Assembly: GCA_903813345.2 (NCBI GenBank)
Contig: CAIIXF020000004.1
Coordinates: forward strand, 9,930,196 to 9,994,195
DNA length: 64,000 nucleotides
Source: Owenia fusiformis
Taxonomy: Eukaryota; Annelida; Polychaeta; Sabellida; Oweniidae
Direction of reading: 5' to 3'
The position numbers were made by a program, and so were the translations under genes. The notes under the pieces are model-generated. The model had not been told where the DNA came from and ran no database searches. It was given only the letters and a program-made list of their open reading frames with translations. The first letter of the stretch is position 1, and every line of letters begins with the position of its first letter. This document shows, piece by piece, positions 15,101-60,800 of the stretch.

Positions 15101-18100
15101 TGAAGACTAGAACTGCCAATGTAACTTGAATATTACCATAGTATTTGTAATGTAATCTTTTAACGACTTTAACGAAATACTTAGTCAAAGAGAATTTTAT
15201 AGAAATATTTTCACTAAATTGTTCCATGTTGGGCAATAGAGTATCAAGTTTGAATAATGGCTGCCAATCCTCCTTGATTTGACTTTATATACATTTGCAA
15301 CATTGGCTTTGCTATCATTAAGCACCATGAACATTTCCAGGTATGGTGAGTGGATCGATGTGGTGATAGATGATTTCCTACCAACCGTCAATGGAAAACT
15401 TGTCTACGTACATTCGAAGAGCAAGAATGAGTTCTGGAGCGCTCTCTTGGAGAAAGCTTATGCAAAGTAAGTTTGAAAATTGTCATAGATGGTAATGTTT
15501 ACACCCCCAAAATGCAATCTGATTTTCGACGCTGTTTTGATGCCAAGTTTCGGTGCCGTTTCGACACCAAATGGACTGACTAGTCCGGTGCCAAATTAGG
15601 GTCTCGAAAGGTTGGACGCCGGAATGGTGCCGGAACAGCGCCAAATTTTTTTGATGCCGAAACGGCGCCGAATGTTATTGGCTGTGTAGAAATGAGAAAT
15701 TGAGTGATAAAGAGTGGAATCAGCAATCAATATATTAATGAGCCATTTAGATAAAATATTGAATTGTATCAAAATGCAAGAAAATCATGCACTTCAGTAT
15801 GGATTCAGAGATAAAAGCATGAAAATTGCATGAACAGAGAGAGAAAATCTAGTCAAAGGCTCTGCCTTGGAAAACTCATCTTTGCACTGTAATCTTAGTG
15901 CAAGAATAAGATCTACTTCATTAGGTTAAGTAAAGTAATCAAGAATTCATTGTGTTAATTATTCAGAAAAAAAGTTGAATAAGTGTAATCAGCAAGGAAT
16001 AAAGTAAACAGTTGACACTGTAGAATAAATAGAAATGCAAGTAAGAGAGCATTTAAAATTTATCTGTATATTTCTCTCGATAGTATAGCAGTACTTACGA
16101 TATCCCAATTTGTTTTTAGACTTTTCGGATCTTATGAAGCTTTAGATGGAGGTGAGTTATCAGAAGCCCTTGAGGATTTTACAGGGGGTGTGTCATGGCC
16201 GATCAACATGGTGGAAGAAAATTATGCTGGAGATGAGGAAAAAAGAAATGAACTTTTCCGCATCATGAGCAAAGAAATGGATAGAAGGTCCTTAATGGCA
16301 GCTGCAATTCCTGTAAGTTGAAAACTAGTACTTAGAACAATATTAGATGTCCAAAAACGCATTTTACATTTCAGCTATTTTTCTCTGTCCCCCTAAAATG
16401 TAATTGAAAATAAGTATTGATTTGACCTAGTTGAAATTCTTGGATAGAAAATTTGATAAAGGAATGTAACGCTCATGGATAGCAAACTGCTACTACAACA
16501 CATCTATAGTGGCCTACGCCTTTGTGGCACACTTGGAAGAGCATCAGGCTTGGGTCTGAGAGTACTGGTTTCGATTCCCACATGGGGTGTTAAATTTAGC
16601 ACACTCTCATGTCTGTGTCTGGTTTGTTACACTATGCTCTGCATTTGGCCATTTCCTTGAGGCACCTAATCTCCTATCAATACATGAATATGTTCGATGC
16701 TTAGAAATCTGAATGCAGTGAGGTGTAAATAATAGGGGTCCCACGATATATTATCTTTAATTTCGATACGAGCAACGATATTTTCTTCACGATACAATAC
16801 AAACGATACAAGCAATGTAACAGCGCAACAAATATTTTTATTTTCAAAAATATATTGGAAAACAAGACATTAAGATGCCAAATGTACCAACAGCCAAATT
16901 TCGAACTTGTGAAACGGTATGTAACTATGAATGTCCTCCTTAAACTAATGTCCACTAGACTAATATCGTATCTTGACCAATTGCTCGAGCAAATCCGAGC
17001 AATCGCGAGACCCCTACATGCTAGTAAATAAACATCCAATAACTTTAAATGTAAACCAGCTCATGTGATACAGATTTCACTAGAATTTCTCACAACAGGC
17101 AAAATTAATGGAAACAAAAGGCAAAATTAATGGAAATCATAATTTAACATGGAAAAGTTGAAAAGTCCCTAAAAACTTCATGCGTTTTTTTTAAAACAAC
17201 TGGTGAAAACCGCCTGTTGCCTGCTGCTAATGAAACCCCTGTGATACCATGTACAGCTAGGAACCAGGAACAGCTATAGTGATATCTCCAAAACCATGTT
17301 GTTGACAGCATAAACACCACTTCTTGGTTGACTGATTGCCAGTATATGTAGCCATAGCAACCAACGATGTAAGCAAAACAAGGGACGAAGCACACATTGC
17401 AGGTGCATACATTACCATGTTTTCTGACCCACCCTGTAGAATCAATCTATCGAAATTCATGCCATCTATAATGGTTCTATAGCCTAAATTCATGCAGACA
17501 TAAGTAGATGTACATGGCTGAAATCAAGGGTGAATCAACTATCTAAAATACCGTATCTCTAATTTTCTATATTTTAGCCAGAGGGGGTAAGTTTAGAAAA
17601 AAGTAATAGCCTACTGGCTTCATCATATTTAAGTTTATGACCTTGATATATGCTTTTCAAACAAAGCTAAAACAAATTTTTCATTTGGTTAATTTTCAGC
17701 CTATAGCTATATTCATAGTATTAGAACAATGCAGTGGAAGTGTACATTTAAGATCATTTAAGATCATTAAGATCATTTAAGATTAAGATTATTAAGATCA
17801 TATAAGTTGCAAATTGTAAAATGTTTGTATTAATTAGAAGGTTTTGTGCTTAGTTGCTGGGATGTAGGGAGTATTTTGATTATTAAAGGACCATGGATCA
17901 TATATCACATGATTTTAAACAGTCATATTTTCTTTACCTATTTGCGTATCCTGACAATTACCATATGTCAGAAAGTATCCTAAGTGACATCTTTACCTAT
18001 TCAGTTGAATGAGCTAATCAGTATCTTGAGTGATTTTGGAATGGGTGACACAGTGTTGGGTTCATGTGTGGGACAGTGTTGAATTAAGGGTAAGAACAGT

Positions 18101-21100
18101 TTGGGAAGTTTTCTTTCCCTCCCCCCACCCTTGAAACTTCTATTATGTGTAGTAAGTTAGCTATCCGGTGGGCCTTCACGCCCAAAAATCTATTGCCCAA
18201 TTCTTAAAGTGAAGTAACACTGGATGGTATTGGTGTCACTTAGGGATAGGTACTACGCCTGGTGAAAAATAATTTTATACCATGTAGCATTTTATTTTTA
18301 AAATGATATCACTGTTGCTCAAATTGTTAGGCCAAATCTTCATGATACCATTGTTACTGGGCATTTTCTGACAATATTGGATTTTACAATATCACTGTTG
18401 CTCAAATTGGTATGCAAAGAAAGTGTGTCATGATATCACTGTTGCTCAATATGTTTCTTGCAACATAAATTTTTCATTCTAAACCAAAGTAATTAATATT
18501 ATTGTTCGAAATTTTGGTAGTATATTCGCAACATCTATCTATTTCACATATAATCCGTGTTTTTCATCCTGACCCCCAGGGGCCGTGTATATTCCTAGTC
18601 AGGAAAACAGAAATTTTCACTAATTTTTAGATCTTTCTGAAGTATAGCTTTATTATACTCAAATGAAAGGCAATTAAGAGTAGATTGCAAATATTGTATC
18701 TTTTTCTGATTCGAGCCTCGTAAAATTCAAAATGGCCGTCTAATGTACGATTTCGCAATAATTTTTCGATCCTTTCAAAGTATGGCTATATTTCAAATTG
18801 AAGGAATTTTGGAGTAGATCACAATTATGGTATTATTTTTCAGATTTGTACCTCAGAAAATTCAAAATGGCTGCTTTGCAGGAATTCGCAATTTTAAAAT
18901 CTAAATTTTTCAATTTTAACCAAAGTAATGAGTATAATTGATTGGAATTCGGTAATTGATATTTTGTTCGTTGGGATTTGCTACTCCGCGGAGTTGCCGT
19001 TATCTAGTTGAATATGTTTCTTGCAATATTTTTTTAGGCTCCATCAGCATTTGATAACAGTATCACTGTTGCTCAAAGTAAATGCTTCATGATATCACTG
19101 TTGCTGAATATTCTTCTGATTATACTTTCAGGCTACATCCGCTGATGAGATGGAGGCCACAACAGATGTTGGACTAGTAAAAGGTCATGCTTATGGTATC
19201 ACAGCTGTTAAAAAGGTCAGTATGAAAAGAATTTGGAAATAATTTGTGTTCGATAGTAGTATTACTTGTTCTTATGTTCTACACCTTTCCTTTCAATTTT
19301 GAATAAACTGTTAGATTTTCTTCCATTTCTGTACAATTGAGAGTTTCATCTCGTGTTAACTTTATTTTTTTGTAAATCCACTCTTTTCCACTTTAATTTG
19401 CATTTCAAATCTTGTCCCCCCACATCATAGGCGTAGTCAGGGGGTGTGAAGGGTGATCGCACACCCCCCCTCCATAACCAATACAGCGGTGGCGGTAGGC
19501 ATATATTTTTGTGAGTCATCATGACTCAGGTAGTTTCAAAAAAGTGAGTCACAAGAAAAAAAGTTGAGTCAAAGCTATAAAAGTGTTTTTCTTGAGTAAA
19601 AATGCATACAAAATGTAGAAACCACATACAAAATCTATTTTTTGATTTTGTGCATACCTTTTATTGTACTCTTATAGCACATTAACAACTAACAATTAAT
19701 TAATTAGGCAATTGCAAGAAAAATGTCACTATTAATCATCTGATTATCTGGTCCAGCGAGTCATGGGTGTGAATGGAGTGGGAGAGGAGTTTCTCCCTGT
19801 GTGGAGTTACACAAATTGGGGTCAAAGCGTTTCATGTTGAAATTCAACATTTTTGCAATCATTCCAAAGTCTAAAACGGCAATATAAGTCCGACCACAAT
19901 ACTGGGCATCATTTAAATTGAATACGGTAGAATCTTGTAATTATAGCTGATCAAATGAAACCGAAAGTAGATTTGTTTTCATACCTAATTTATCATCATT
20001 ACCCCCCTTAATGTGCGATCGACTGGATTTTCATGTGCCCATTATCTATCTTCATAGGATCAGCTTCAGATCTAGTGAATCGAAGATCTTAACTTGAGGG
20101 AGTTAATTGAAAATACTTGGTGAAAACTTACGATAGATCGGTCACTGTGAGCACCATTGATAAACCTACTGCGCATTACATCTGCGCATGCTGATGAAGG
20201 GGACGGCTCAAGGAAACTTGCTAACTTAGCGAAGGAATTTTGCGAACTTGCGAAGGAAACTAAAGATTCGTAAATCTAGCGTGTGAACATTCAAGGGAAG
20301 ATTTTATGCGGTAATTTAGATAAATATACGATCACTAAAGTCCTTAGAAGGGAGTATGAAATTAATAAATTATTGTTCAATGTTATGTTCGTTTTATTGC
20401 ATTTTTGATACGCCCCCTAGCAACGTGCTTCACGAGATAAACAAATCGAGGGATCGATCAATGTTTTCAAGTTTATCATTGAATCTGAATCACGGGGCTT
20501 TAAAAATTATATGAAATACCGAAATGAGAAAATGATCGGTAGGAAGGAGGCTCGATTGCGCTGAACGAAATGTTAGATTTCCGGAATTAGCAAAATTATA
20601 AATTTGATCAATCACGTATTTTCACGTATATGGGTTCAATTTAACCAAGTAACAAGCGGGGATTTTGCATGTGAAACAAACGTGCGTCAGAAAGACTCGG
20701 TAGACAATGAATATTTGCGTCAGAGTTGCAAAAATGTGAGTAAAAAACGTAAAAAATTGCGTTAACGCCACCTCTGCAATAAAAATAGAACCATGAGATA
20801 GAAGAAGAAAATAGCTTAAATGCTTTTTATTTGAAGCTTCTAGCTCAATTTTGAAGGAAGTTGCATCAATTTGTGTATAATTCAAAATAAATCTTACTTT
20901 TTGGCTTGTATATGCTACAATCACACCCCTCCCTGACTGAAAATCGAAAAAAATCGGCGATCACACCCCCCCTGAGTGAAAGCTGGCTACGCCCCTGCAT
21001 ATGTATTGCAGTTTGCAGTAGTGAACTCTTCAAACAAATCTTATATTCAGCACTTTTTCGTGTCTCATTTTCTTGTATTTCCATACACTTTTGAGTGTTA

Positions 21101-24100
21101 CCTACATGCCTGTTTACTTTATTCCTTGCTAAACCCTCTATTGTCCATTCTAATTTGCATTTCATATTTTGAGCCACATGTATTGCAGGTTGCAGTAGAA
21201 GGCACTGGGCTGTTTGGACTTTTCAATCAAGAGAAGATGCAGATGATCAGACTCAGGAATCCATGGGGGAAGTGTGAGTGGAATGGTGCATTCAGTGATG
21301 GGTTAGTCATCTTTATTATTTATTTTCTTCATATCATTGAATCTTGAATGTCCTTACTCAGTTTGTTTTGTCATGATATGAGAAAATGAAATCTATGAGA
21401 AACCTGCTTTGGGACTTCAGTATTGTATAGTATACACCATCATCATTCTTTGATATAATGTTAGAGTACAGATTAAATACAGATACAATACATGTATTTG
21501 ATTATTACAGAGATAGTTAAAATATTTGCATTCCTTTAAAGGCAGAATCAGATCTATAGGGGTGACAAAATTACAAGCAACATGTACAATTGACCTACCA
21601 ATCTATTCCAATTTTTGGCCCGCTTGCTAGATCTGATTCTCTCTTTAATGGATGGGTGTATAAGGAAAATGGTTAAAATGGAAAGTTACACATGTATTGT
21701 GTTTTTATATCACACTTTCAAAATTGCTATATTGTCCTTGTTTTCGCTTAATATCATAATCACATTAATAATCCTTGGAAATATTTTCAGGTCCAAAGAA
21801 TGGGAGAAGATTGAAAAAGCAGATAGGGATAAAATTGGACTTACTTTTGATGACGATGGTGAATTCTGGTAAGTGTAATTTACATATTATGGCACGTGTC
21901 TTACATTTTATGTACATTGCTATCCATGTTACATTCTAAGAAGTATTTTAAGACCTAATGATTGTAAGATTTTGATGTGATATTGATGGCTGAATTTTAC
22001 ACATATTTTATTCATTTTACTCATAATTTTACTCATAAACACTATGATCGTGAAGTGATTGAGTTCTTAGACTATGGACCCTAAAATCACATGATAATTT
22101 ATATGTTAATTCTATTGGTGCCCTGAAACTGTGAGAATGACATCACAACAAATAGAAGGCATGATTTATTTACTTCTATGGGATGACCCTGTAAATGTGC
22201 ATATTGTGATTCATTTTTTGTCCTAAAATCCTGAACTGATTGATGGATCGATCTCAAATTTTTAGGGATGCTTTTGGGCATTCTGGGTAAATGTTAAGGT
22301 GGCCATTTTGAATTTTTTGTCCTGAAATCTTGTCTTTTCAACTTATTAGTGTTGGGTATCCCGAATGAAAAATAATTAGGATCACCCATTCTTGGGGACA
22401 TGTTGTACATTGTACAAGTTTGTGTCCTTGTTAAATATGGTCAAGAAATTACTAATTTACTAATACACATCTTGTATCCTAAATTCAGGAATCGATTTAG
22501 GGGAAGCTTTACGAGATTCCTTGATAGCACATTCTCACGTAAAGCTAAAGAAAAAACATTATCTGAAAAGATTGATAGTCATTGCTGCAATGGATGGTAT
22601 GTTTAATTGGGTGATATCCTCAAATCTCTATTATCAACACATGGGCTAATTTTACAGTATTTGTGAGTTTTGCAAATGATGGGAATTTTGGAGCACTGTT
22701 TGGTAATTTTTCTCGATCATCACCAAGGAGTTCATTAGAATATTTGACAACACAAAACAAACAAATAGGAGTTAAAAGCGCATCATGCAAAATTATTTGA
22801 AATTGTGATTTTAACATGGGCACAGATTCTTCAGTGCAAGAGGTAATTTTGGTAAAAACAGAAAGAGAAAATCGGCTTTTGTTAGAGCTGATAATGAAAC
22901 CCTTATACAGGGTGTCTCAAAAAAATGTACACCCTATATTCTTTACAAAGTGCGGTTCAAATCACGAGGTTTTCAGTGGTGTCTGCAATTGAAAACACCT
23001 CACAAGTGGTGGTTGAGGCACGGAGCAACCGATTTTCTATTTTTTGATTCCAATATTGTCGGTGCTATGGAAGAAATGCTTTATTTATGGCCAGTATCAG
23101 GATAGAGCAACAGCTGTTACTTCCTATTTCAAAATGGCAGATGTAATCTTGAATCCCCAAAAATTGATTCCCTAATTGATTTTCATCAAATAAAAGCTTG
23201 CTACCATTGATATATCTCAAAACCAAATCCCTGTGGCAAAATGGTATAATTCAATGGAAACAAGAAATTGTTGATCTCAATCCACCATATTGAAAGAAAA
23301 GGTAACAGCCATTACTGTATCCTGATGCTACCCTGTGTTATTGTTATTATATATTTTTTTATTTATATTAGAATTAAAAACATTGTGGCACTGTTTATTT
23401 TTGCACAGATTAAACATTTAGATATCAAGGTGCATTTGATAATTAATAGATAGCATAACTTAAATATTTGTGTTTCACATGATATATTAGAAAGATTTCG
23501 CAACTCACTTATAGCATGTTTATCATCCCTGTATCACATATAACTTATGAAGCGTTCGATTACGTCATCATTTATTGATCAGCTTTATATCTCCATTAAG
23601 TTTGATATTCTTATAAATTGTTGTCTCAAAGAATGTCATATTATGGATGTATAGAGCTGCACAATAAATGGTGATGTAATCCAACGCTTCATAAGTTATA
23701 CATAATACGGGAATAATAAACATGCTATAAGTGAGTTGCAAAATCTCTAATCGTATTGTGTATTGAAATGGAGTCCATTTTCATCACTAAGTCACTAAGT
23801 TACTGTAAAGGAATTTGAATCCCGGGAGGTTCACTCCAATATACCTCTCAATACCTATGCGCCAAAGACCCCCTTTTTGAACATTTTTTCCATGTCAATT
23901 TCCTCTCAAGATTGAAAGTTTCCATGTACACTTCCTCTCGGAAGGGAGTTTTCCTGAAATATTGGTGTATAACTATAAAATCACCTTTTTAGGTGATTAA
24001 TCCCAGACCTCGCCAACTGATTTTACTGATTTATTACCATTATTTGTAGAAAAACTGATTTTTGACTTAAAAAAGGCTCTCTCTTCGACAAATTTTCCAT

Positions 24101-48100: not shown

Positions 48101-49760
48101 CACAGTTGCCATAGAAACCATGTTGTTTGAATTTGTATGGTATTCAAAGCATTGGTATTTTTAGGGTAATCTTTTATAAGGTATTTTTATTGTGATGTTT
48201 ACAATTTAACTTGTTCAAAAGACAGAGGAAAACTAAAAGTGTTGATATTGGTTGTTTCTATAGGAACCAAAAAGATCTTATAAAAGAAACATATCACTTA
48301 AAGTTAATGAATGATCATCCCTCGTATAAAATGTTAATATAAAACTTTAAAAATACAAATCAGATCTATTTATGTTTTGTTGATTTAGTTTGAAATTAAT
48401 ACTGTGGTAAAGCTGGTTACATGAATAGAACTACTAACATGTGCAAATATTATGCCATAATATAACAAAAGGAAAGAAATGCTCTATACCTTGACTTCAA
48501 GGTAACATATGGGAGAATAATATGATTATGGGATATATACCCAAGAGGTGTCACTCACCTTTATAGGTAAACAAAATACCTGTGTTCAAACATTTTCAAT
48601 CCTTACAAACAATTTCTGTTAATATGATTGATACTCAATAATGAAATACATTGCATTTAAAGGTACAGACCAGTATATTTCATCAAGTGACATTTTGTAT
48701 TTAAAGGTGCAGACCAGTGTGTTTCTTCAAATAAATATTGTTTCTTCAAATAATATTTTGGATATAAAGATACAGAACAATATGTTTTATCAAGTGAATT
48801 TTTTTTTAAGGTGCAGACTGGTATGTTTCATCAAATAATTATTTTTTAAAGGTGCAGGCCAACATGTTCATTCAAATAAATCTTGTATATAGACCAACAT
48901 GTTCCTTTAAATAAAATTTTGTATTTAAAGATGCAGGCCATTATGTTTATTTTGTATTTAAAGGTGCAGACCAAAGTGTTACATCACATAAAATTTTGTA
49001 TTTAAAGATGCAGACCAAGGTGTTACATCACATAACATTTTGTATTAAAGGTGCAGACCAATATATTTCAACATATGAAATTATTTTTAAAGGTACAGAC
49101 CATCATATTTCATCATATAAGATTGTATTTAAAGGTGCAGACCCATATGCCATAGTGCACTGTGAGGGACAACAGTATTACACTCCAGTAGTTAAAGATA
49201 CAACCAATCCTGAATGGGGAACATCAGTGATATTATACAGGAAGAATCCAGTGCAGAAACCCATTAAAGTAGTGGTAAGTTGTCATGTTTTTGATTACAA
49301 TACTTACACGTACAGATCATAATATTTTATCGATCAATTTAACCACTTGAATCCCAGCCTTCAAAATTGGTTTGAAACCAGAGAAATTTTTCATTTTTGC
49401 CATTTTTTGACATTTTACTTACATCAGGTATCGCTCAATTCAATCAAATTAGTCGGCAGATATCATTTCTACACATTTTAAATTCCTGAAGGTGGTTTCA
49501 AAATCTCTTTTGTCCAGTTTAGATGTGTGCATCATATATCAACCTTGGCAGTACTACCACGATATTTTCTTTTCCAGATTTGGAATAGCAATGTAATAAA
49601 AGATGATTATATGGGAAAACACATATTCCTTGCCAGAGATAACAGCGAAGGGAAAGTCTTGGAGGTTGATCTCCAGGGGCCGAAGAAACAAAACAATGAG
49701 AAACGGCCTGGCAAAATGTGGGTAGAGATGTCTACCAATACTGACTTGGCGCATTTTTAA
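3110..49760 (+). CDS. CAPN5-like: Calpain-5/TRA-3-type calpain cysteine protease, 14 coding exons
   Basis: Coding exons: 3110-3286, 13040-13171, 13956-14038, 15341-15466, 16120-16312, 19132-19215, 21189-21301, 21791-21868, 24608-24788, 26560-26673, 43846-44042, 45135-45283, 49135-49274, 49578-49760. All have AG/GT borders and compatible phases; they total 1950 nt, 649 aa, close to the usual ~640 aa of calpain-5. Seen: the CysPc core with Cys85 (QGSLGNCWF), His256 (VKGHAYGIT) and Asn289 (RLRNPWG), so the catalytic triad is intact, unlike calpain-6. The calpain-type beta-sandwich domain (about 345-500, acidic loop TEDEDEDV in exon 10) and a C-terminal C2 domain (about 520-649) follow; there is no EF-hand domain. 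Known of the family: Ca2+-dependent intracellular limited proteolysis. The start ATG is preceded by an acceptor at 3090-3091, so a 5' UTR exon probably lies upstream and was not found. Odd: six cysteines at 504-518 between the two last domains, and four antisense genes in its introns. Confidence 0.93.
4573..4737 (+). repeat. Dispersed repeat, copy 1
   Basis: AAAGGACCACAGAAGG followed by CAGACAGTCATATGTTGGATT-like sequence; ~165 bp, ~85% similar to 36741-36897. A shorter relative occurs at about 17886. Confidence 0.6.
4772..4777 (-). terminator. Polyadenylation signal of the twin six-cysteine gene
   Basis: AATAAA on the - strand, about 80 bases after the TAG stop at 4859-4861. It supports 4859 as the real 3' end of the coding sequence. 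Confidence 0.55.
4859..11333 (-). CDS. Secreted protein with two six-cysteine modules, nested in calpain intron 1
   Basis: Not recognised. Exons in transcript order: 11333-11220, 10831-10715, 10100-9959, 9613-9584, 5809-5618, 5013-4859; 750 nt, 249 aa, phases all matching. It opens with a likely signal peptide ([20 protein letters not shown]). Module 1 has cysteines at 43, 51, 73, 82, 87 and 112; module 2 at 144, 152, 167, 176, 185 and 215. Both start C-x7-C and both contain a C-x8-C pair, so they look like diverged duplicates joined by a 30-nt microexon. The tail (216-249) is Cys-free and ends TVGPTPGR. The second intron starts GC (CAG|GCAAGT) rather than GT. An AATAAA on the - strand lies at 4772-4777. 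The intron 5810-9583 is almost filled by a palindromic transposon. The layout recalls Cys-patterned secreted families such as nematode DUF19/T20D4.11-like proteins, but that is only a resemblance. Function unknown; likely an extracellular disulfide-bonded protein. Confidence 0.75.
6505..8165. mobile_element. Inner foldback unit with its own inverted ends
   Basis: About 95-bp inverted repeats (6505-6600 and 8075-8165; shared blocks include GGGGGCTGTCAGG and ACCTGGCAAA-type sequence) bracket an inverted pair of minisatellite arrays. It is nested within the larger palindrome 6035-9519, either a second insertion or the original core. Confidence 0.65.
6598..8085. repeat. 21-bp G/C-rich minisatellite arranged head-to-head
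   Basis: Unit close to TGGCCCCCAGAAGCTATACGA, in + orientation at 6598-7640 (~48 copies) and in the opposite orientation at about 7645-8085 (~20 copies). Because 21 is a multiple of three and the unit lacks stops, open frames of a (G/A)PQKLYx heptapeptide run on both strands. I read these as a by-product of the repeat. Confidence 0.9.
8166..9050. repeat. Diverged direct copy of the palindrome right arm
   Basis: About 8640-9000 resembles 9000-9360 in direct orientation (shared block CGGCCTCAGTTCTAATAGAT followed by ATTCTGAACCAAAAATGGATTG-type sequence), so the right side holds two arm copies and the left side one. Confidence 0.6.
10462..10630. mobile_element. hAT-like MITE, copy B, 5-bp target duplication TAAAT
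   Basis: 169 bp, ends CAGGGGTTTCA and TGAAACCCCTG, flanked by TAAAT at 10457-10461 and 10631-10635. Sits in the second intron of the twin six-cysteine gene, 85 bases from exon 2. Confidence 0.75.
11760..11880. repeat. Three hairpin units of ~37 bp
   Basis: Each unit contains GGAGGATAT, about seven bases, then ATATACTCC (first copy degraded), giving three consecutive small stem-loops at about 11776, 11813 and 11849. In calpain intron 1. Confidence 0.65.
12015..12152. repeat. Near-perfect long hairpin (~60-bp stem)
   Basis: AACAAATATTTCACTCTATT at the left is mirrored at the right. The arms pair almost continuously up to a loop containing GAAGCCCGAAGGGCAA, which can itself pair. Wider flanks (about 11985 and 12500) also show inverted similarity, so it is probably the core of a foldback element about 600 bp long. 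Confidence 0.75.
13711..13961 (+). repeat. 37-bp direct repeat carrying the exon 3 splice acceptor
   Basis: The same 37 bases (TTAATACTGTGTTCTGATTG followed by the acceptor TCTAG and GTGATA) occur at 13711-13747 and 13925-13961. The second copy holds the real acceptor and first 6 bases of calpain exon 3; the first is a perfect decoy 214 bases upstream. Confidence 0.85.
14200..14392. mobile_element. Short MITE-like repeat with GGCTATGGGCCTG end, copy 1
   Basis: G/C-run flanked repeat of ~190 bp containing ATGGTGAAAAACTGCATGATT. It is related to 33738-33905 (same orientation) and 54471-54630 (inverted). In calpain intron 3. Confidence 0.55.
15548..15673. repeat. CpG-rich inverted repeat
   Basis: TTCGGTGCCGTTTCGACACC at the left is mirrored by GATGCCGAAACGGCGCCGAA at the right, with further GGTGCC/GGCGCC motifs between. 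It stands out as a CpG-rich island in an AT-rich intron (calpain intron 4). Confidence 0.6.
16497..16650 (+). repeat. tRNA-derived SINE-like fragment
   Basis: AGAGCATCAGGCTTGGGTCT followed by a B-box-like GGTTTCGATTCCCAC matches the second half of a degenerate tRNA promoter. No complete cloverleaf can be drawn. In calpain intron 5. Confidence 0.45.
17071..17241. mobile_element. hAT-like MITE, copy C, 5-bp target duplication TGATA
   Basis: Same family as 10462-10630, left end mutated to CAGATTTCAC. Flanked by TGATA at 17066-17070 and 17242-17246. Located in calpain intron 5. Confidence 0.7.
18300..19115. repeat. Cluster of TGATATCACTGTTGCTCA motifs
   Basis: Copies at about 18304, 18345 (diverged), 18388, 18430, 19063 and 19089. 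The 18440-19060 gap holds an inserted block that includes an internal imperfect duplication (TTCAAAATGGC motifs at 18726 and 18861). Two weaker copies occur in intron 10 near 27056 and 27100. Confidence 0.65.
19426..20997. mobile_element. Non-autonomous DNA transposon, ~1.57 kb, CAGGGGCGTAGCC-type ends
   Basis: Left end CATAGGCGTAGTCAGGGG and right end GGCTACGCCCCTG are inverted repeats, extended inward by G/C-rich CACACCCCCC blocks. Flanks CACAT (19421-19425) and CATAT (20998-21002) differ at one base. Interior ORFs show no transposase. It sits in calpain intron 6, splitting a duplicated piece of that intron. Confidence 0.65.
21001..21198 (+). repeat. Duplicated acceptor region of calpain exon 7
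   Basis: ATGTATTGCAG-x-TTGCAGTAG occurs at 21001-21020 and at 21179-21198; the second is the real acceptor plus the first codons of exon 7. Intron sequence on either side of the transposon 19426-20997 is also similar, so a segment of the intron was duplicated. Confidence 0.6.
22912..22960 (+). repeat. Transposon end fragment
   Basis: CAGGGTGTCTCAAAAAAATG followed by TACACCCTATATTC resembles the outer end of invertebrate DNA transposons. No matching right end was found. Confidence 0.3.
23486..23751. mobile_element. MITE with ~90-bp inverted ends
   Basis: Ends ATTAGAAAGATTTCGCAACT and the mirror AGTTGCAAAATCTCTAAT, arms extending through CTTATGAAGCGTT. 266 bp, no coding capacity. In calpain intron 8. 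Confidence 0.7.
24470..24600 (+). repeat. tRNA-derived SINE-like fragment
   Basis: A clear T-arm (GTGGG-TTCGATC-CCCAC) and the preceding AGAGCACTTACTCGG are typical of tRNA-derived SINE heads. The 5' half is missing and the anticodon arm mispairs, so it is not a tRNA gene. It ends just before calpain exon 9. Confidence 0.55.
24789..24978 (+). repeat. 63-bp tandem repeat starting at the calpain exon 9 donor
   Basis: Three units, each beginning TAAGAGG and ending GAGATTAT or GGGATTAT. The first unit begins inside the GTAAGAG splice donor itself; the second and third are progressively more different from it. Each unit carries CAACAGGCAAA or CAACTGGCAAA. Confidence 0.8.
25190..26340. repeat. Clustered GTTCACTGTT-type dispersed repeats
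   Basis: Several copies of a block reading GGAGTCAATGGGAGAAAGAGG, AAGGTTCACTGTTG and GGTGTTCACT lie between 25200 and 26340 in calpain intron 9. Related ACAGT(A/G)AAACCTG motifs recur at 27739, 44211, 44880 and 50310. Probably remnants of one MITE family whose ends include CAGTAAAACCTG. Confidence 0.45.
26674..27937. other. Calpain intron 10, part before the dehydrogenase gene
   Basis: AT-rich, with a C-run/CA-run at 27187-27219. No exon or RNA gene seen. It must contain the dehydrogenase 3' UTR at its right end, but no canonical - strand AATAAA was found close by. Confidence 0.4.
27938..36023 (-). CDS. DHDH-like: Trans-1,2-dihydrobenzene-1,2-diol dehydrogenase-like (Gfo/Idh/MocA family), nested in calpain intron 10
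   Basis: Exons in transcript order: 36023-35934, 34060-33943, 33608-33445, 32838-32697, 31543-31436, 31148-31024, 28885-28735, 28329-27938; 1290 nt, 429 aa, phases all consistent. Residues 1-125 form the Rossmann NAD(P)-binding half, opening [14 protein letters not shown], followed by IIAVASREL. The family lysine is in LCEKPAAMN (Lys99). The C-terminal catalytic half contains [11 protein letters not shown] and [10 protein letters not shown], whose Asp178 and Tyr182 correspond to the active-site Asp and Tyr of mammalian dimeric dihydrodiol dehydrogenase. Known of the family: NADP-dependent oxidation of trans-dihydrodiols and some sugars, cytosolic. Homologues end near the equivalent of residue 331 ([10 protein letters not shown]). 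Here the last exon adds about 98 residues: two SYSxNA motifs, then an Asp/Asn/Gly-rich tract ending [11 protein letters not shown]. Whether this tail is translated in all transcripts is unknown. Confidence 0.9.
29090..30161 (-). mobile_element. Degenerate mariner-family transposon
   Basis: Inverted ends CGAGGGTTGTCCCAGAAGTA and the mirror ACTTCTGGGACAACCCTCG, flanked by TA on both sides. At ~1.07 kb it is shorter than the usual ~1.3 kb mariner, and its interior is partly deleted. A - strand reading frame retains the N-terminal part of a transposase. Located in the intron between exons 6 and 7 of the dehydrogenase gene. Confidence 0.8.
29481..29768 (-). pseudogene. Mariner transposase fragment (N-terminal DNA-binding half)
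   Basis: A 95-codon frame. The segment [20 protein letters not shown] followed by [21 protein letters not shown] has the helix-turn-helix spacing of mariner transposases, in which a W-x-x-RF-(K/R) block is followed by a (D/E)-D-x(3-5)-GR-P/Q linker. The catalytic DDD/E half is absent, so it cannot be active. Confidence 0.6.
30384..30553. mobile_element. hAT-like MITE, copy D, 5-bp target duplication AATAT
   Basis: Same family as 10462-10630, left end CAGGCGTTTG, right end TGAAACCCCTG, flanked by AATAT at 30379-30383 and 30554-30558. Lies in the intron between exons 6 and 7 of the dehydrogenase gene. Confidence 0.75.
33738..33905. mobile_element. Short MITE-like repeat, copy 2
   Basis: Related to 14200-14392 (ATGGTGAAAAAGTGCATGATT). 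The ends are degraded. In the intron between exons 2 and 3 of the dehydrogenase. Confidence 0.5.
36741..36897 (+). repeat. Dispersed repeat, copy 2
   Basis: Same family and orientation as 4573-4737. Lies between the dehydrogenase and receptor genes. Confidence 0.6.
37283..37478. repeat. ~50-bp tandem repeat (AAACAAATATGCAAACTGCA)
   Basis: About four imperfect units containing ACAAAT, GCAAACTGCAAACC and TGACTGA or TTACTAA. No coding potential seen. Confidence 0.7.
37806..38136. mobile_element. hAT-like non-autonomous element, 5-bp target duplication TTATG
   Basis: 331 bp with inverted ends CAGGGGCGGATCCAGG and CTAATCCGCCAGTG, flanked by TTATG at 37801-37805 and 38137-38141. The interior is dominated by G- and C-runs and repeated GGCCC/GGGCC blocks. 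No transposase. Between the dehydrogenase and receptor genes. Confidence 0.75.
38735..41614 (-). CDS. Somatomedin-B-containing class B (adhesion/methuselah-like) 7TM receptor, intronless
   Basis: One uninterrupted 959-codon reading frame. Residues 1-24 look like a signal peptide. A Thr/Asn-rich stalk with many N-x-S/T sites includes four ~15-aa repeats (about 95-155, core [16 protein letters not shown]). A somatomedin-B domain follows at 187-224 (CHGNCGN, CACDVYC, NDCCSDF, C224). Two Cys-rich blocks then carry YCAKCNN (297-303) and YCAICAN (388-394). Seven hydrophobic segments run from about 629 to 908, with Cys696 at TM3, Cys809 in an unusually long (~55 aa) second extracellular loop, GFTWIFGF in TM6 and [10 protein letters not shown] in TM7, all typical of the class B/adhesion fold. 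I see no GPS autoproteolysis motif. The cytoplasmic tail is ~50 aa. Plasma-membrane signalling receptor; ligand unknown. It lies in calpain intron 10 on the opposite strand, 2.7 kb from the dehydrogenase. The lack of introns suggests an old retrocopy or a lineage-specific single-exon family. Confidence 0.92.
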   Translation of the reverse strand: MKNIVQLRISLNIFMFLVLLLFCGDTRQVGNNTKISKGNHKATDFNITSEITTEHIKATQSTFDVASEHNTTGKIDVTDSWNATDLSIRNDMKSRLNVTTGHDYEYTSQSILNVTTEHNNEETSQSILNMTTEHNNEETSQSILSVTTEHNNDKTSTPSYARPCENQETLQTALDEVKDCTTYMPQLYSCHGNCGNKTSPDRHCACDVYCLVNNDCCSDFTQICPVMAEHSHRIMESVQDQQIQWDCTKMKHNVPVKMITTCPDSSNKQCNPHGLDLLEGYMPVFDNNTGLYYLNDYCAKCNNFTNGELQMPTEFTCPFPLNFNNMEKLQQALYTKTCTLVFDQMGHQCWMYESTCHPDCEFNETVQTLCETNPVQMYATNYIYKNEYCAICANDWPGDVFANKHCSSKTNGHYNPILERFSFSLVMNINPDRELLVEFNINGKRRSFRCENLSNCNDACIAGYELQNDTCVLMYDIKPVTATFEYSIPGEVYSVMDISSEFVSDLSFVFDRLDVSKTLNKRFVDKISYSFSKDYDTDSKRLKGLFVAKINVKLPISRNLTMHQFHNDTVDAMMNFMKDEFFSTSDEDSDFDTLTICIDVVNLVTCYDWLNGTFLNQTDNRVKKVGLQSMEIMGLVTIICLTLSIICMLLRLISQAFVSIFHSFAGKIQFCFVSSLCVSNILYLIGPFVTDIPSLCEAIGILIHFFFLVSFTWMGIIALEMYLTFRSTLHNSKGWKRILLYVFISMFLPVIVISVAVTLDHVSVDTRFKPFYGNSVTGIPNSDFDTTNSVPSTSKLENGENLNSEVQTCQMSNPYATLLFFACPLGVMIVFNTIMYILTVSSLKSAWRQTAMVSNRNNFHFDVYIKLFIIMGFTWIFGFIAPFVHEAIVYVFIVLNASQGVFIFISSVCTKVVLNEIKSKCMRGNKSGQSSLNCSAGTNVLNGKTGQLKEDPVMDSTSL
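41633..41640 (-). promoter_or_regulatory. TATAAATA motif upstream of the receptor
   Basis: TATAAATA on the - strand ends 18 bases before the receptor ATG (41614-41612). If used as a TATA box, transcription would start at or inside the first codons and translation might begin at Met15 (MFLVLLLF). Could equally be chance in AT-rich DNA. Confidence 0.25.
41765..41830. repeat. 19-bp tandem repeat, three units
   Basis: CCAACCTCTCCTTGGTAAC repeated three times (second unit with T for C), about 150 bases upstream of the receptor start codon on the - strand. Confidence 0.8.
41831..43845. other. Calpain intron 10, part after the receptor
   Basis: AT-rich, no exon recognised. One copy of a dispersed repeat with AACAAATGACAGGTGGTGACA lies at about 42478; it recurs at 52420 and 52585. 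Confidence 0.4.
44043..45134. other. Calpain intron 11
   Basis: Contains two degenerate copies of the AAACCTG/GTGTTCAGATT dispersed repeat (about 44211-44350 and 44880-45055). Ends with three short repeats of ATACCCTTGCAAAATTTACT type (45056-45130) leading into the acceptor CCCTTGCAG of exon 12. Confidence 0.5.
45375..45380 (-). terminator. Polyadenylation signal of the C1q-domain gene
   Basis: AATAAA on the - strand about 125 bases after the stop. It lies only ~90 bases from calpain exon 12 (45135-45283) on the other strand, so the C1q 3' UTR probably ends just short of that exon. Confidence 0.45.
45505..47345 (-). CDS. C1q-domain protein with a charged insertion inside the domain, nested in calpain intron 12
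   Basis: Main exon 46289-45505 (acceptor TATTCAG, stop TAA at 45505-45507). Proposed first exon 47345-47291: ATG in a good context, donor AATC|GTAAGT, phase matching. Together 840 nt, 279 aa. Residues 20-58 are a low-complexity Lys/Asp/Asn/Glu-rich stretch. The C1q domain starts near 65 with KIAFSGVLQ and continues through [34 protein letters not shown] and [19 protein letters not shown] to [16 protein letters not shown]. Between RLKKSF and [10 protein letters not shown], where ordinary C1q domains have a short loop, about 63 highly charged residues (137-199) are inserted. There is no collagen region and no signal peptide with this first exon, so it may be intracellular or the true first exon may lie elsewhere. 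Known of the family: trimeric jelly-roll heads used in recognition. The intron holds a mariner remnant. The 3' end faces calpain exon 12. Confidence 0.8.
46543..47170 (-). mobile_element. Degenerate mariner-family element in the C1q intron
   Basis: Ends TACAAGGGCCGATCAAAAAG and CTTTTTGATCAGCCCTTGTA form inverted repeats that include TA. The inverted arms extend ~200 bp (46543-46745 against 46970-47170), so it has become a foldback element. The right half keeps a transposase C-terminal remnant. Confidence 0.75.
46824..47069 (-). pseudogene. Mariner transposase fragment (C-terminal end)
   Basis: An 81-codon frame ending [30 protein letters not shown]. The pattern [11 protein letters not shown]...G-x-E-Y-F matches the usual mariner transposase C-terminus (a W/Y-x-x-C-x(3-5)-G-x-Y-F/V ending). 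Upstream catalytic domain missing. Confidence 0.55.
47346..48639. other. Calpain intron 12, upstream of the C1q gene
   Basis: AT-rich flank of the C1q-domain gene start. No other exon or repeat array seen. Confidence 0.4.
48640..49134 (+). repeat. ~45-bp tandem array re-copying the calpain exon 13 acceptor
   Basis: About eleven imperfect units, each with (T)TTAAAGGTGCAGACC or a close variant, at about 48660, 48704, 48767, 48809, 48849, 48891, 48928, 48961, 49007, 49049 and 49090. The array runs directly into the real junction TTTAAAG|GTGCAGACC at 49134/49135. The real acceptor has a poor pyrimidine tract. Confidence 0.85.
49338..49490 (+). repeat. Dispersed repeat, copy 1 (TTGAATCCCAG block)
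   Basis: Resembles 56626-56790 over ~150 bp (AAACCAGAGAAATTTTTCATT, TTTTGACATTTTA). In calpain intron 13. Confidence 0.55.
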
Positions 49761-54845: not shown

Positions 54846-57800
54846 TTAACCTCTGATGTAACTGTTGAGCTGCTGACCAGCGTAGGTTGTAATAATGTTG
54901 TCTATCCAAGCCTCATAGTAAGATACACGTGTATAAACACCAGGGTATAGGGGGTCGGCACAACCATATCCCCATGACACTATACCTACAAGTAAAAAGA
55001 CACACGCGTGTATACACTAGGCTAGAGGGGGTCTGCACAACCATATCCCCATGACACTATACCTACAAGTAAAAAGACACGCATGTATACACTAGGCCAG
55101 AAGGGGTCTGCACAACCATATCCCCATGACACTATACCTACAAGTAAAAAGACACACGTGTGTATACACTAGGCTAGAGGGGGTCTGCACAACCATATCC
55201 CCATGACACTATACCTACAAGTAAAAAGACACACGTGTGTATACACTAGTCTAGAGGGGGTCTGCACAACCATATCCCCATGACACTTTACCTACAAGTA
55301 AAATATACAAGTACAAAGACAGGCATGTGTATACCTTGGGGTAGAAGGGGTCTGCACAACCATATCCCCATGACACTATACCTACAAGTAAAAAAACACG
55401 TGTGTATACATTAATAGTCTAGAGGGGGTCTGCACAACCATATCCCCATGACACTTTACCTACAAGTAAAAAGACACACATGTGTATACATTAGTCTAGA
55501 AGGGGTCTGCATAACCATATCCCCATGACACTATACCTACAAGTAAAAAGACACACGTGTGTATACACTAGGCTAGAGGGGGTCTGCACAACCATATCAA
55601 CACGACACTATACCTTCAAGTAAAATATACACATGTGTTTACACTGTATCACCCATGCTACATCGAGGTAGAGGGGTCCCTCATAACCCACCGACATCCG
55701 ACACCGTACATCAAGCACAAATGCACGTCGGACTAAAATCAGTTGCAGTTAGATCTAATATGAACAAAATCATTGCCAGTTCTGTGACAAAAATATTAAA
55801 CTCGTCTTTCTTTCTTTTTAACATATTAATTATTTCCTTCATAATCACAAAAATACACAAAATATCTACTACCAATCGCCATTGGTATTCATTGGTATTC
55901 TTTCTTCCTCGGCCTAGAAACTACGTATAATCATATTGTGCCCCTACACTCGGAAGACGGAAAAATAAAAAAATAAAATGGTCTATAGAAATGTGGCAGT
56001 AGTCTATCTATTCAAAAGTTAAGACCATTACTGCCATCTTCATATTACCTGCACCCTCGTAAAGTTGTGTGTTAGGGTTCCAAACGCTAAGGGGTCCCCC
56101 GCTGTCTCCCTGAAAGCAAAAATATGACAATATGTGATATCCCTAATGCCGACAACGTATTTTTCAAAACACTAACGGACAGGGGGCGCTTATATTTTAT
56201 TCTATGAAAACATTGAGATGGTGTGATCTTCAATTAATTTTTGATCCTAACTTAGCCACTATCAATTATAACTTCGATCACCTCGATTTTTGCACCAAGC
56301 GTGCATTAGCAGGGTTATACATTGTAATATGCATAGAGGAGAATGGATTTTATATGTCTATATATGCCATTTGCTTGTATGAGCGAGAGTATTCATCTTT
56401 GCGAGACTTTGTCACATGGAATCCCCCTCCGATTCTCATCTAGCCAAACAAAATATAATCCCCATGCAAAGAATGAACACGTCTTTCATTTTCTTTACGT
56501 TGCGGGGCTCCTTTGGACCGTTTGGACTAAATACAATCTACTATACCTTGCATTTGGTGTTCATGAGCAACCCATTTGGCTTATTAGTAATGATTATGTA
56601 TTTGTTTTTATTTTTCTGTTCCGTATTAACCTCTTGAATCCCAGGCTCTAAAATTGGCATGAAACCAGAGAATTTTTCATTTTTTGCCACCTTTTGACAT
56701 TTTATTACATACCTATACAACTTTAGATGCTCAGCTTAGTAAAATTGGACGGCAGAGAACATTTATACACGTTTTAAAACAATTTTTGTGTAAATTGGAT
56801 GAAAATTGTTCAAATGAGAGCAATTTTTGTGAAAAATTTTGTGACGGATTTTCTCGTCCCTCTGGGCACCAGTCTTATTTCATTTGTGACGGATATATCC
56901 GTCACTCTGGGTATTAAAGATTGGTTTAAAGTCAGTGACTTTTTGTTTCAGCTCTTCTTGGCAGATAAAGAAATTAGTAAATTAAAGCAGTTCCCAACTA
57001 AAAGGTCAATGGGGATCACAAGGATAACATTGGGTGGACCTTATGTTTACCTACCTGGCACGAGTCTTTACCATCCCTGGCTGCACACATATTATAATCA
57101 AATATGTCCTCGTTAGGGTAGGCGCTGTCACAGGCGGCGTTCGTTATGATGTCAAGGTTGGCGTACAGCAGAATGTTTGAGATAGACCCACCTAAAATAG
57201 TTTAAAGTATGGTCACATCACATCAATAAAAATTCAGAAAATTCTCTGAAAATAGGAATTTTGAATTAATTATTTTGGATTTGGGAATAAACTGAACACC
57301 TTAATCACTGGTCAGTGTTAGGGGACGGTAACGTTCGATAGTACGTTCTTTTTCAAAATGGCGGAGGGAAACTGTCGATTATACATTTTTAGTTTTCATC
57401 GAATGAAATAATTTTGCCTTCGGGCTACTTGGATATTCGGCTTTGAAATTTCGACCACACCAGCCTAAGAGAGAATGATATGGAAACTCCATATCATGAA
57501 AAATAGGACCGTTTCAAGTAAGGAGCACATGAAGTATTTTTACAAAGTTGTGATTTGTAGATTTTGTGTATGTTCTAAGTTGGGTTATGCCCTTCCGTAC
57601 CATATGTTTCACTCGAGAATTTTCAAATTATTTGTAGAATTTGGTTTGGTACCTACCTGCTGATGTAGTACCCCAACCACTAACAGTCCCCACCTGGCCT
57701 GCGTATGTGTTAGAGGCTGAGGGCTTACAAACTGGTCTACAAATGAAATATGACAGTGTTATACAAGGCCTATATACAAAATGTCACCACCTGCCATTTG

Positions 57801-60800
57801 TTACAGACACCGACCGCCGAACACCGTCGACATAAAAATCGGTGACTATAACAATATAATAACAACTTTTGGTGGTGACTTAAAAACGCAAACCATGAAC
57901 TGGATCATATTATTAGATTTGAACCAGAGACCGCTATTCTTCATTTACTATTTTGGACGAATAATTATATACTTGTCGGATATGTCAAAAGATCTAGACT
58001 TGAATGGAATTTAAATTTTGCAAATATATTCAACGGCAATAAGAGTTTCCGTCGATATTCTTAATTAATTAATGATTCTTAAGTAATCAATATTTAATAC
58101 CATTTGGGCAACTGAACACTAGAATGCATTGTACTTTTACAAAAAATAGAAAACAAACATTAAAATGCTGATCTCTTAAGATATAACAAACAATTATAAA
58201 ATCAAACCTGATTGTATCAGAGAAACTAGGTATAGCGCCTGCTGGTAGTTGAACTAACATGATGTCATTCAAGATGTTGAAATCGTCATAAAGCTCGTGC
58301 ATGACGCCACCTAGCGGCACTATCTCCAGAGCCCCTGTGGCATCTGTTCTGTCGTGCAATCCTAGAGAAACCAAATAGTCCGTGGCTCTGTCTCCCTTAA
58401 ATTAAATAATGTACCCTGCGTGCAGAGTTTAGTTATAAACGACGAAGCTTTCTTTTAGAGGCGAAGTCAAACGAATGCAAAGGGTATAAATTATGTGGAT
58501 TCAACCAAATTATCTTCTCACACATGTGAGAGCAAAGCGAGCTCTCGATCTCTCTGTGTTTGGAAAAGCCAAGAAGCTTTGATTTAAGAAATCAAGTGAG
58601 GTTTTATATAACATTATTTTAGGCATTGAGTTCCCAATGGAAAATTGGGATGTCTTCAATGCAGGAATGTCTCAATTATGTACCAAAGAAGATTTTTTGG
58701 CTGATGTATCAATGTATCCTTTGCTATTTTGGGTCTTTTTGCTCATATGTACATGTATAATTCATGAGAATGTAATTGTTTAATTAGCATAAGGTATAGT
58801 GTAAGATTGTTTTAATTGTCAAACTATTCTTCAGTATTGTAGGCTAAATAAATAAATAAATACATGTAGTGCGACGTATACTTATATATTTTTATGGATG
58901 ATATGACGTATCATTATATATTATGATGAATAATATAAGGTATACTTATATAAGCATCAATACTATGACGCGTGTTTATCTTATTTTAATATTGGCATAT
59001 AATTGCTGAATACAGTGGCAAAAGTATACATTAACATAAACAAAATACACTCATGTTAACATATGACAGTATCGAAGTGTAAACGTATGTTGGCAGTAAA
59101 ACTATGACGTACACTTATATATAAGCATTAATAATATGACGTATATTTACAATGGCATCAACATATGACGATTACTAATATATTGGCGATATGACGTACC
59201 AAAGTTACTTTGGCATATGCGTGTATATCATGACGTAAAACTTTCTTTGGCACAAACAATATGACGTTTACTTTTATATTGATGACATGACATATCAACG
59301 TTATATTGGCACTTTGACGTGTATTTATATATTGGCATTAACACTATGACGTATACTTATATTTTGGCATTAACGCTATGACTTATACTTATATATTGGC
59401 ATTAACGCTATGACATATACTTATATATTGGCATTAACGCTATGACGTTTACTTATATATTGGCATTAACACTATGACGTATACTTATATATTAGCATTA
59501 ACACTATGACGTATACTTATATATGGCATTAACCCTATTACGTATACTTATATATTGGAATTAATGCTATGACGTATACTTTTATATTGGCATTAACACT
59601 ATGACGTATACTTATATACTGGCATTAACACTATGACGTTTACTTATATATTGGCATTAACACTCTGACATATAATTATATATTGGCATTAACAATATGA
59701 TGTATACTTATGTATTGGCATTAACGCTATGACGTATACTTTTATATTGGCATTAACACTATGACGTATACTTATATATTGGCATTAACACTCTGACATA
59801 TACTTATATATTGGCATTAACACTATGACGTATACCTATATATTGACATTAACGTTATGACGTATACTTATATATTGGCATTAACACTATGACGTATACT
59901 TATATATTAGCATTAACATAATGACGTATACTTATATATTGGCATTAACACTATGACGTAAACCTATATATTGGCATTAACACTATGACGTATACCTATA
60001 TATTGGCATTAACGTTATGACGTATACTTATATATTGGCATTAACACTATGACGTATACTTATATATTAGCATTAACATAATGACGTATACTTATATATT
60101 GGCATTAACGCTATGACGTACACTTATATATCGTCATTAACACCATGAAGTATACTTATATGTTGGCATTAACGCTATGACGTATACTTATATATTGGCA
60201 TTAACGCTATGACGTATACTTATATATTGGCATTAACGCTATGACGTATACTTATATATTGGCATTAACGCTATGACGTTTACTTATATATTGACATTAA
60301 CGCTATGACGTATACTTGTATATTAGCATTAACACTATGATCATATTGGCATTAACACTATGACGTATACTTATTTATTGGCATTAACACTATGACGTAT
60401 ACTTATATATTGCCATTAACACTATTACGTATACTTATATACTGGCATTAACACTATGACGTATACTTATATATTGGCATTGACACTATGACGTATACTT
60501 ATATATTGGCATTAACACTATGACGTATACTTATATATTGGCATTAACACTATTACGTATACTTATATACTGGCATTAACACTGTGACGTATACTTATAT
60601 ATTGGCATTGACACTATGACGTATACTTATATATTGGCATTAACGTTATGACGTTTACTTATATATTGGCATTAACACTATGACGTATACTTATGCAACT
60701 CGTACGTTGGCATTATTGATGCAATGTGCAGCTGTCAAGACCCATTCTGAATTGATGAGGAATCCTCCACACAAGGTTCCTTTCTTTGTGTTTAGGAACT

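Follow-up and report, generated by a model that had tools for sequence, protein, structure and literature searches.

Tandem copies of a splice acceptor and exon start ahead of the terminal exon of a trypsin gene in Owenia fusiformis

Described systems and the organisation of the trypsin array

Tandem duplication across an intron-exon boundary is a known process. In the potato RdRp gene, such a duplication is described as the source of an intron gain, with the new intron confirmed by RNA (PMC4974935), tandem duplications are reported to stand behind novel Drosophila introns (PMC2891723), and the process is also covered in a review (PMC3443670). A connection between minisatellites and splicing has been described in Caenorhabditis elegans, where intronic repeats lie near alternative exons (PMC4039745). 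A literature search, whose coverage leaves out most subscription papers, found no multi-copy acceptor array like the one described here. Nor did this search turn up an acceptor ladder of many copies that recurs in several genes of one genome.

The window (the whole stretch of 64,000 nucleotides analysed) contains a minus-strand trypsin gene that we modelled as eight exons running from 62687 to 54849. Joining the exons gives a 283-residue protein that covers all of PF00089 (positions 1-220 of 220, E 1.8e-58) and contains a full trypsin (S1) domain with TAAHC, GDSGGP and IVGG; its closest solved structure is 1ym0, the chain of which is named fibrinotic enzyme component B. The reading frame is open across all exons used in the model and the gene looks intact, with an uncertainty at the end of exon 3, where AAC^GTACGA was chosen because it keeps the frame (^ marks a splice junction or a cleavage site). 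The end of exon 7, which the preliminary description had placed at 56049, agrees with the exon model. The activation site (window 61383-61292, minus strand) is TLQ^IVGG, so that IVGG follows a Q rather than K or R.

Tandem Repeats Finder (TRF) calls a 77-bp unit repeated 9.3 times at 54920-55645 (score 828). The preliminary description had proposed about eight tandem copies ahead of the true exon, born by copying of the acceptor and the exon start, and both points are borne out: TRF and alignment give eight partial copies (55626-54999, minus strand) that reproduce the acceptor together with some 64 bp from the start of the terminal exon, and every unit joins an intron end of about 13 bases, with the acceptor, to an exon start of about 64. 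We refer to these copies as decoys and name each by its first exon base (Table 1). A 33-nt junction probe allowed up to three mismatches found eight places in the 498-Mb genome, all at the trypsin locus and corresponding to the true exon and seven decoys, while a reversed control probe found none. Upstream of the array lies an older, decayed copy, whose alignment score was equalled by 0 of 500 shuffles when compared with a unit and by 13 of 500 when compared with the true exon.

Table 1. Features of the trypsin locus, in window coordinates.
Feature	Positions	Strand	First exon base	Remarks
Trypsin exon 7 (GDSGGPL...)	56049..56109	-		last base 56049, donor CAG^GTAATA
Intron 7, 1,063 nt	54986..56048	-		contains decoy array
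Decayed older unit copy	~55650..55721	-		shuffle test
Decoy unit, 77 bp	55550..55626	-	55613	acceptor ACTTGAAG, stop after four codons
Decoy unit, 77 bp	55473..55549	-	55536	stop after ADPF
Decoy unit, 78 bp	55395..55472	-	55459	GTAAAG start, stop after ADPL
Decoy unit, 90 bp	55305..55394	-	55381	open into next unit
Decoy unit, 77 bp	55228..55304	-	55291	GTAAAG start, stop after ADPL
Decoy unit, 77 bp	55151..55227	-	55214	stop after ADPL
Decoy unit, 75 bp	55076..55150	-	55137	open into next unit
Decoy unit, 77 bp	54999..55075	-	55062	stop after ADPL
True terminal exon, coding part (...NSYIRG)	54849..54985	-	54985	

This organisation is that of a junction-crossing tandem duplication, in that the unit joins the intron end and acceptor to the start of the adjacent real exon. 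As in potato RdRp, the duplicated segment stands beside an intact exon, although the potato case is a single duplication with an RNA-confirmed intron, whereas the trypsin array comprises eight copies, mostly with stops, and is known from sequence alone (PMC4974935). Tandem exon duplication (PMC9013439) likewise repeats an acceptor and exon sequence ahead of a real exon, but it copies a whole exon with both splice sites; the trypsin copies stop within the exon, after ~64 of its 137 coding bases, and lack the exon end. Like the tandem AGGT array of human UBC, the trypsin array has regularly spaced AG^GT sites, one per repeat, yet the UBC repeats are in-frame coding monomers with shown splicing, whereas the trypsin units are intronic, mostly 77 nt long and mostly interrupted by stops (PMC10809524). 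Drosophila ratchet points of recursive splicing also place a donor directly after an acceptor; they lie in long introns and their use has been shown, in contrast to the trypsin sites, which lie in an intron of 1,063 nt and have been read from the genome only (PMC8605326).

In decoys 55613 and 55291, the sequence directly before the acceptor (TATTTTACT) resembles the exon text TATCTTACT, and birth of the array by slippage between similar short sequences such as TATCTTACT and TATTTTACT would fit this arrangement. Separately, several units (window 55000-55640, minus strand) contain a short palindrome, for example ACACACGTGTGT, at the place where the true exon has ATACACGTGTAT, close to the likely duplication breakpoint.

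Variation is unevenly distributed along the unit. Across the eight decoys, the first 48 alignment columns, which comprise the acceptor and codons 1-11, vary at 9 of 384 cells, compared to 26 of 230 in the remainder (permutation P 0.0002). The true exon differs from the decoy consensus at 1 of 48 positions in this part and at 6 of 29 in the rest (P 0.010), the sole fixed difference within the first 48 columns being silent (GCC versus GCA). Low variation here is the chief observation that might favour function, and it could reflect constraint on the acceptor and exon start; our tentative preference is for a faster-mutating AC/GT tract in the tail of the unit. Within the first eleven codons of the seven decoys that carry ACTTGTAG, I is changed to K in two copies and C to Y in one. 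Because all three of these pre-stop codon changes alter the residue, the decoys give no clear sign of protein-level constraint.

Splice signals and predicted products of decoy joining

The preliminary description credited each decoy with a full acceptor, which calls for a correction: seven of them keep ACTTGTAG, and 55613 has ACTTGAAG; the exact 13-mer TTTTTACTTGTAG is present in six, with 55291 and 55613 beginning ATTTTAC instead. Over the 23 positions from -20 to +3, decoys 55536, 55459, 55214 and 55137 show no difference from the true acceptor, and the others differ from it at 1 (55062), 3 (55381), 7 (55291) and 9 (55613). We further ranked the sites with an acceptor weight matrix built from 95 acceptor sites sampled in this genome, which a script picked as the best-looking near the end of a profile match, a choice that flatters the reference set. 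The true site ranks at the 62nd percentile on this scale; the four decoys that differ from it rank between the 60th and the 83rd. The identity of four acceptors and the ranks of the other four support the earlier claim that a spliceosome must pass all copies, and the intron-side sequence thus offers no ground to skip the decoys. The complete exon with its 3' end is present at the true site only.

Two further ideas about the decoys were considered and rejected. Selection does not appear to have purged decoy acceptors: the AG is retained in all eight trypsin decoys and in 20 of the 22 aligned decoys from three arrays (trypsin and the C2 and L024 arrays described below), a count that worse copies would escape since the probes used to collect decoys allowed 4 mismatches for C2 and 7 for L024. 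Masking by RNA structure found no support either, as the array folds no better than its shuffles (z 0.81; 16 of 20 shuffles at least as stable).

Computed reading frames give truncated products for all eight joins of exon 7 to a decoy, none of which reaches the natural C-terminus. The stop falls after 12 decoy codons in five cases and after four at 55613, and 55381 and 55137 remain open for one unit and then stop in the next decoy. The expectation that most decoys stop straight after GCADPL agrees with the five that end in ADPL or ADPF, 55613 stopping earlier and the other two one unit later, and the proposal that at least two stay open is right for a single unit. Truncated proteases were correctly predicted, should decoys be used. 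The five ADPL or ADPF products lose the last 33 residues, a segment that in the known trypsin fold contains the C-terminal helix and the last part of the second barrel, so such proteins should be inactive.

Two other proposed consequences fare less well. Under the exon-junction rule, a stop in the terminal exon is not expected to trigger classical nonsense-mediated decay. Since the new stop would fall in the terminal exon, decay of the predicted decoy-joined transcripts is unlikely. A variable C-terminal region finds no support under simple decoy use, as a full-length in-frame variant requires that a decoy be spliced as a cassette. When the donor lies at a following unit junction, an open frame to full length results from two units only, the 90-nt one (30 extra residues) and the 75-nt one (25). 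If any GT in the array is admitted as a donor, 22 combinations are open, and those with weaker donor matches insert at least 4 residues.

At all eight decoys and at the true site the AG is followed by GT, with spacings of 75, 77 (five times), 78 and 90, so that the array has the regular AGGT per repeat of a dual-specific tandem array. With CAG as the last bases of exon 7 and GT as the first of the terminal exon, joining to a decoy would recreate a CAG^GT donor, which reads CAG^GTAAAG at 55459 and 55291 and CAG^GTATAG elsewhere. Among 90 sampled donors of this genome, CAG^GTATAG ranks at the 13th percentile and CAG^GTAAAG at the 30th, compared to the 29th for the native exon-7 donor. Speculatively, decoy mis-splicing might therefore be corrected by re-splicing.

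Similar arrays elsewhere in the genome

A search with the last-exon peptide returned 43 matches, seven of them at the trypsin locus. Among the other 36, 32 are continuous with the GDSGGP-like part and four (L024, L033, L035 and L039) have an upstream intron, which at L039 looks displaced. At L024, a different serine protease gene, the last exon is preceded by an independent array (L024 603-1046; 81 bp, 5.5 copies, CTTTCAG^GAATTGC), in which two of four decoys keep the AG and the other two read CAAG, with the AG one base later. L035, a paralog of L024 that is 89% identical over a 115-bp match, is array-free, L033 has a 20-bp array off the junction, and inspection of the L039 locus found no array.

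A further case lies within the window, where an exon that encodes a C2 domain (PF00168, E 5.4e-05) and begins at 49135 is preceded by ten copies of its acceptor and exon start (48656-49134, plus strand), which carry TTTAAAG^GTGCAGACC with 0 to 4 mismatches and keep the AG in 10 of 10; the repeated stretch has genome matches at this locus only. The two nearest decoys (49051 and 49093) are in frame with the exon, so that splicing to them would lengthen the protein by 28 or 14 residues. We infer that this exon belongs to an upstream calpain-like gene on the same strand (Peptidase_C2, window 13037-21302).

We next turned to calpain and kinase exons. The genome yielded 57 Peptidase_C2 matches: four in the window, one long single-exon match that was left out, and 52 others, 50 of which were covered by 40 loci (43.9 kb). 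In this sample of 50 matches, one of which is the partial copy at L054 itself, four arrays span an exon boundary. Three of these (L060, L085 and L054) lie over acceptors. The fourth, L067 (G000:C4:26283293-26284245; 58 bp, 8.1 copies, 99% identical), repeats a calpain exon end and its donor, AAAAAG^GTATGT, and so consists of decoy donors; it is probably recent. L060 and L067 are about 5 kb apart and probably belong to one gene, meaning that the calpain cases are not all independent. An AG^GT start is found in 2 of 6 acceptor arrays and in 18 of 95 sampled acceptors, numbers too few for a claim of enrichment.

Kinase exons gave a different picture, with junction arrays in 0 of 48 exons (43.3 kb) that were hand-picked for a short match and a short open frame among the matches listed of 158. 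At L088, TRF gave a weak hit lying 17 bp away from the kinase match; this hit was read and judged not to span the junction; L089, L095, L105, L113 and L123 were also read, and L124 was left out.

These loci bear on two candidate explanations that we rejected. The array is not special to trypsin, given the independent arrays at L024, the C2 exon and the calpain exons, and no trypsin-specific role is needed because arrays of this kind occur at other exons, one of them in the window, a point that the preliminary description had missed. Targeting of arrays to splice junctions is also unsupported: in the calpain and kinase samples, 4 of 18 merged arrays touch an edge (a profile-match end rather than a mapped exon end), compared to 7.2 expected under random placement (P of four or more 0.99, of four or fewer 0.055). 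The arrays appear to reflect a general tandem-duplication process that has no draw to junctions and is perhaps slightly kept from them.

Two further repeat structures were observed. An array of GGCCCCCAGAAGCTATAC-type units occupies window 6598-8064, with a strand switch near 7650, and at G000:C8:8709521-8712637 four successive matches to one segment of the calpain profile (~221-256) follow each other as if exons had been duplicated.

Origin, splicing and wider meaning of the array

We think it probable that the array is a tandem-duplication minisatellite over the intron 7/exon 8 boundary that is tolerated in a gene that still functions, with the true exon favoured by its context. The sequence shows that the minisatellite was built as a 77-bp segment straddling this boundary was duplicated in tandem again and again, as one case of a general process whose junction hits in the sampled loci are no commoner than chance placement predicts. 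Several copies carry acceptors locally indistinguishable from the real one, and every copy includes only part of the exon. Trypsin would most likely still be made, since the last copy is the only one to carry the whole exon with its 3' end, and exon context would favour that copy. Some leakage to decoys is expected, giving a protease cut short after GCADPL or GCADPF, and part of it may, speculatively, be repaired by re-splicing at the recreated CAG^GT donor. Two observations weigh against this account: the empty kinase sample makes the general rate uncertain, and the low variation in the first 48 columns could mean constraint. A rival account, in line with the view of the preliminary description, is that decoys are often used, with the array lowering functional trypsin output or yielding truncated trypsin. 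We regard this as unlikely: four decoys equal the true acceptor locally, all eight lie upstream of it, and the unit start is the least variable part, but the gene is open with a full trypsin domain, the codon changes in the decoys alter residues (including C to Y), and the decoys lack the remainder of the exon. An assembly artefact is highly improbable, as the eight decoys vary in length and show 1 to 28 aligned differences from one another, and distinct arrays of this type are present elsewhere in the genome.

Quite unlikely, in our view, is a further possibility, that the decoys form a ladder of AG^GT dual-specific (recursive) sites at which each decoy join remakes a donor that is re-spliced to the true exon. 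It draws on the presence of AG^GT at every decoy as well as at the true site, on recreated donors ranking near or below the native exon-7 donor, and on human UBC, where tandem AGGT sites serve both ways (PMC10809524). Against it, the commoner recreated donor is the weak one, and the arrays at L024, L060, L085 and L054 lack a GT start. The broader proposal that junction-born minisatellites in this genome are AG^GT ladders, entered at any decoy and re-spliced until the copy with the full exon is reached, is similarly doubtful. Were it true, identical competing acceptors would be tolerated, array length would set the delay and the truncated share, and junction arrays would constitute a standing pool for new exons and introns.

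These loci provide a natural test of the choice among near-identical splice sites. In classical experiments on splice choice, Reed and Maniatis reportedly built test genes in 1986 that contained tandem duplicates of splice sites. Here a single genome provides several cases, with as many as ten copies and partial exons of varied length. Several copies share the same local signals, so that RNA reads by themselves would reveal the weight of position, exon content and re-splicing. Junction arrays also supply early stages of a proposed route of intron gain.

A second minisatellite lies in the trypsin gene. It has a 32-bp unit repeated 43.6 times (window 59310-60694, minus strand) and starts exactly where exon 3 ends, and its unit and the exon 3 end have TAATGCCAA and the next intron bases in common. 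It is possible that this array, too, originated at a splice junction, in this case at the donor.
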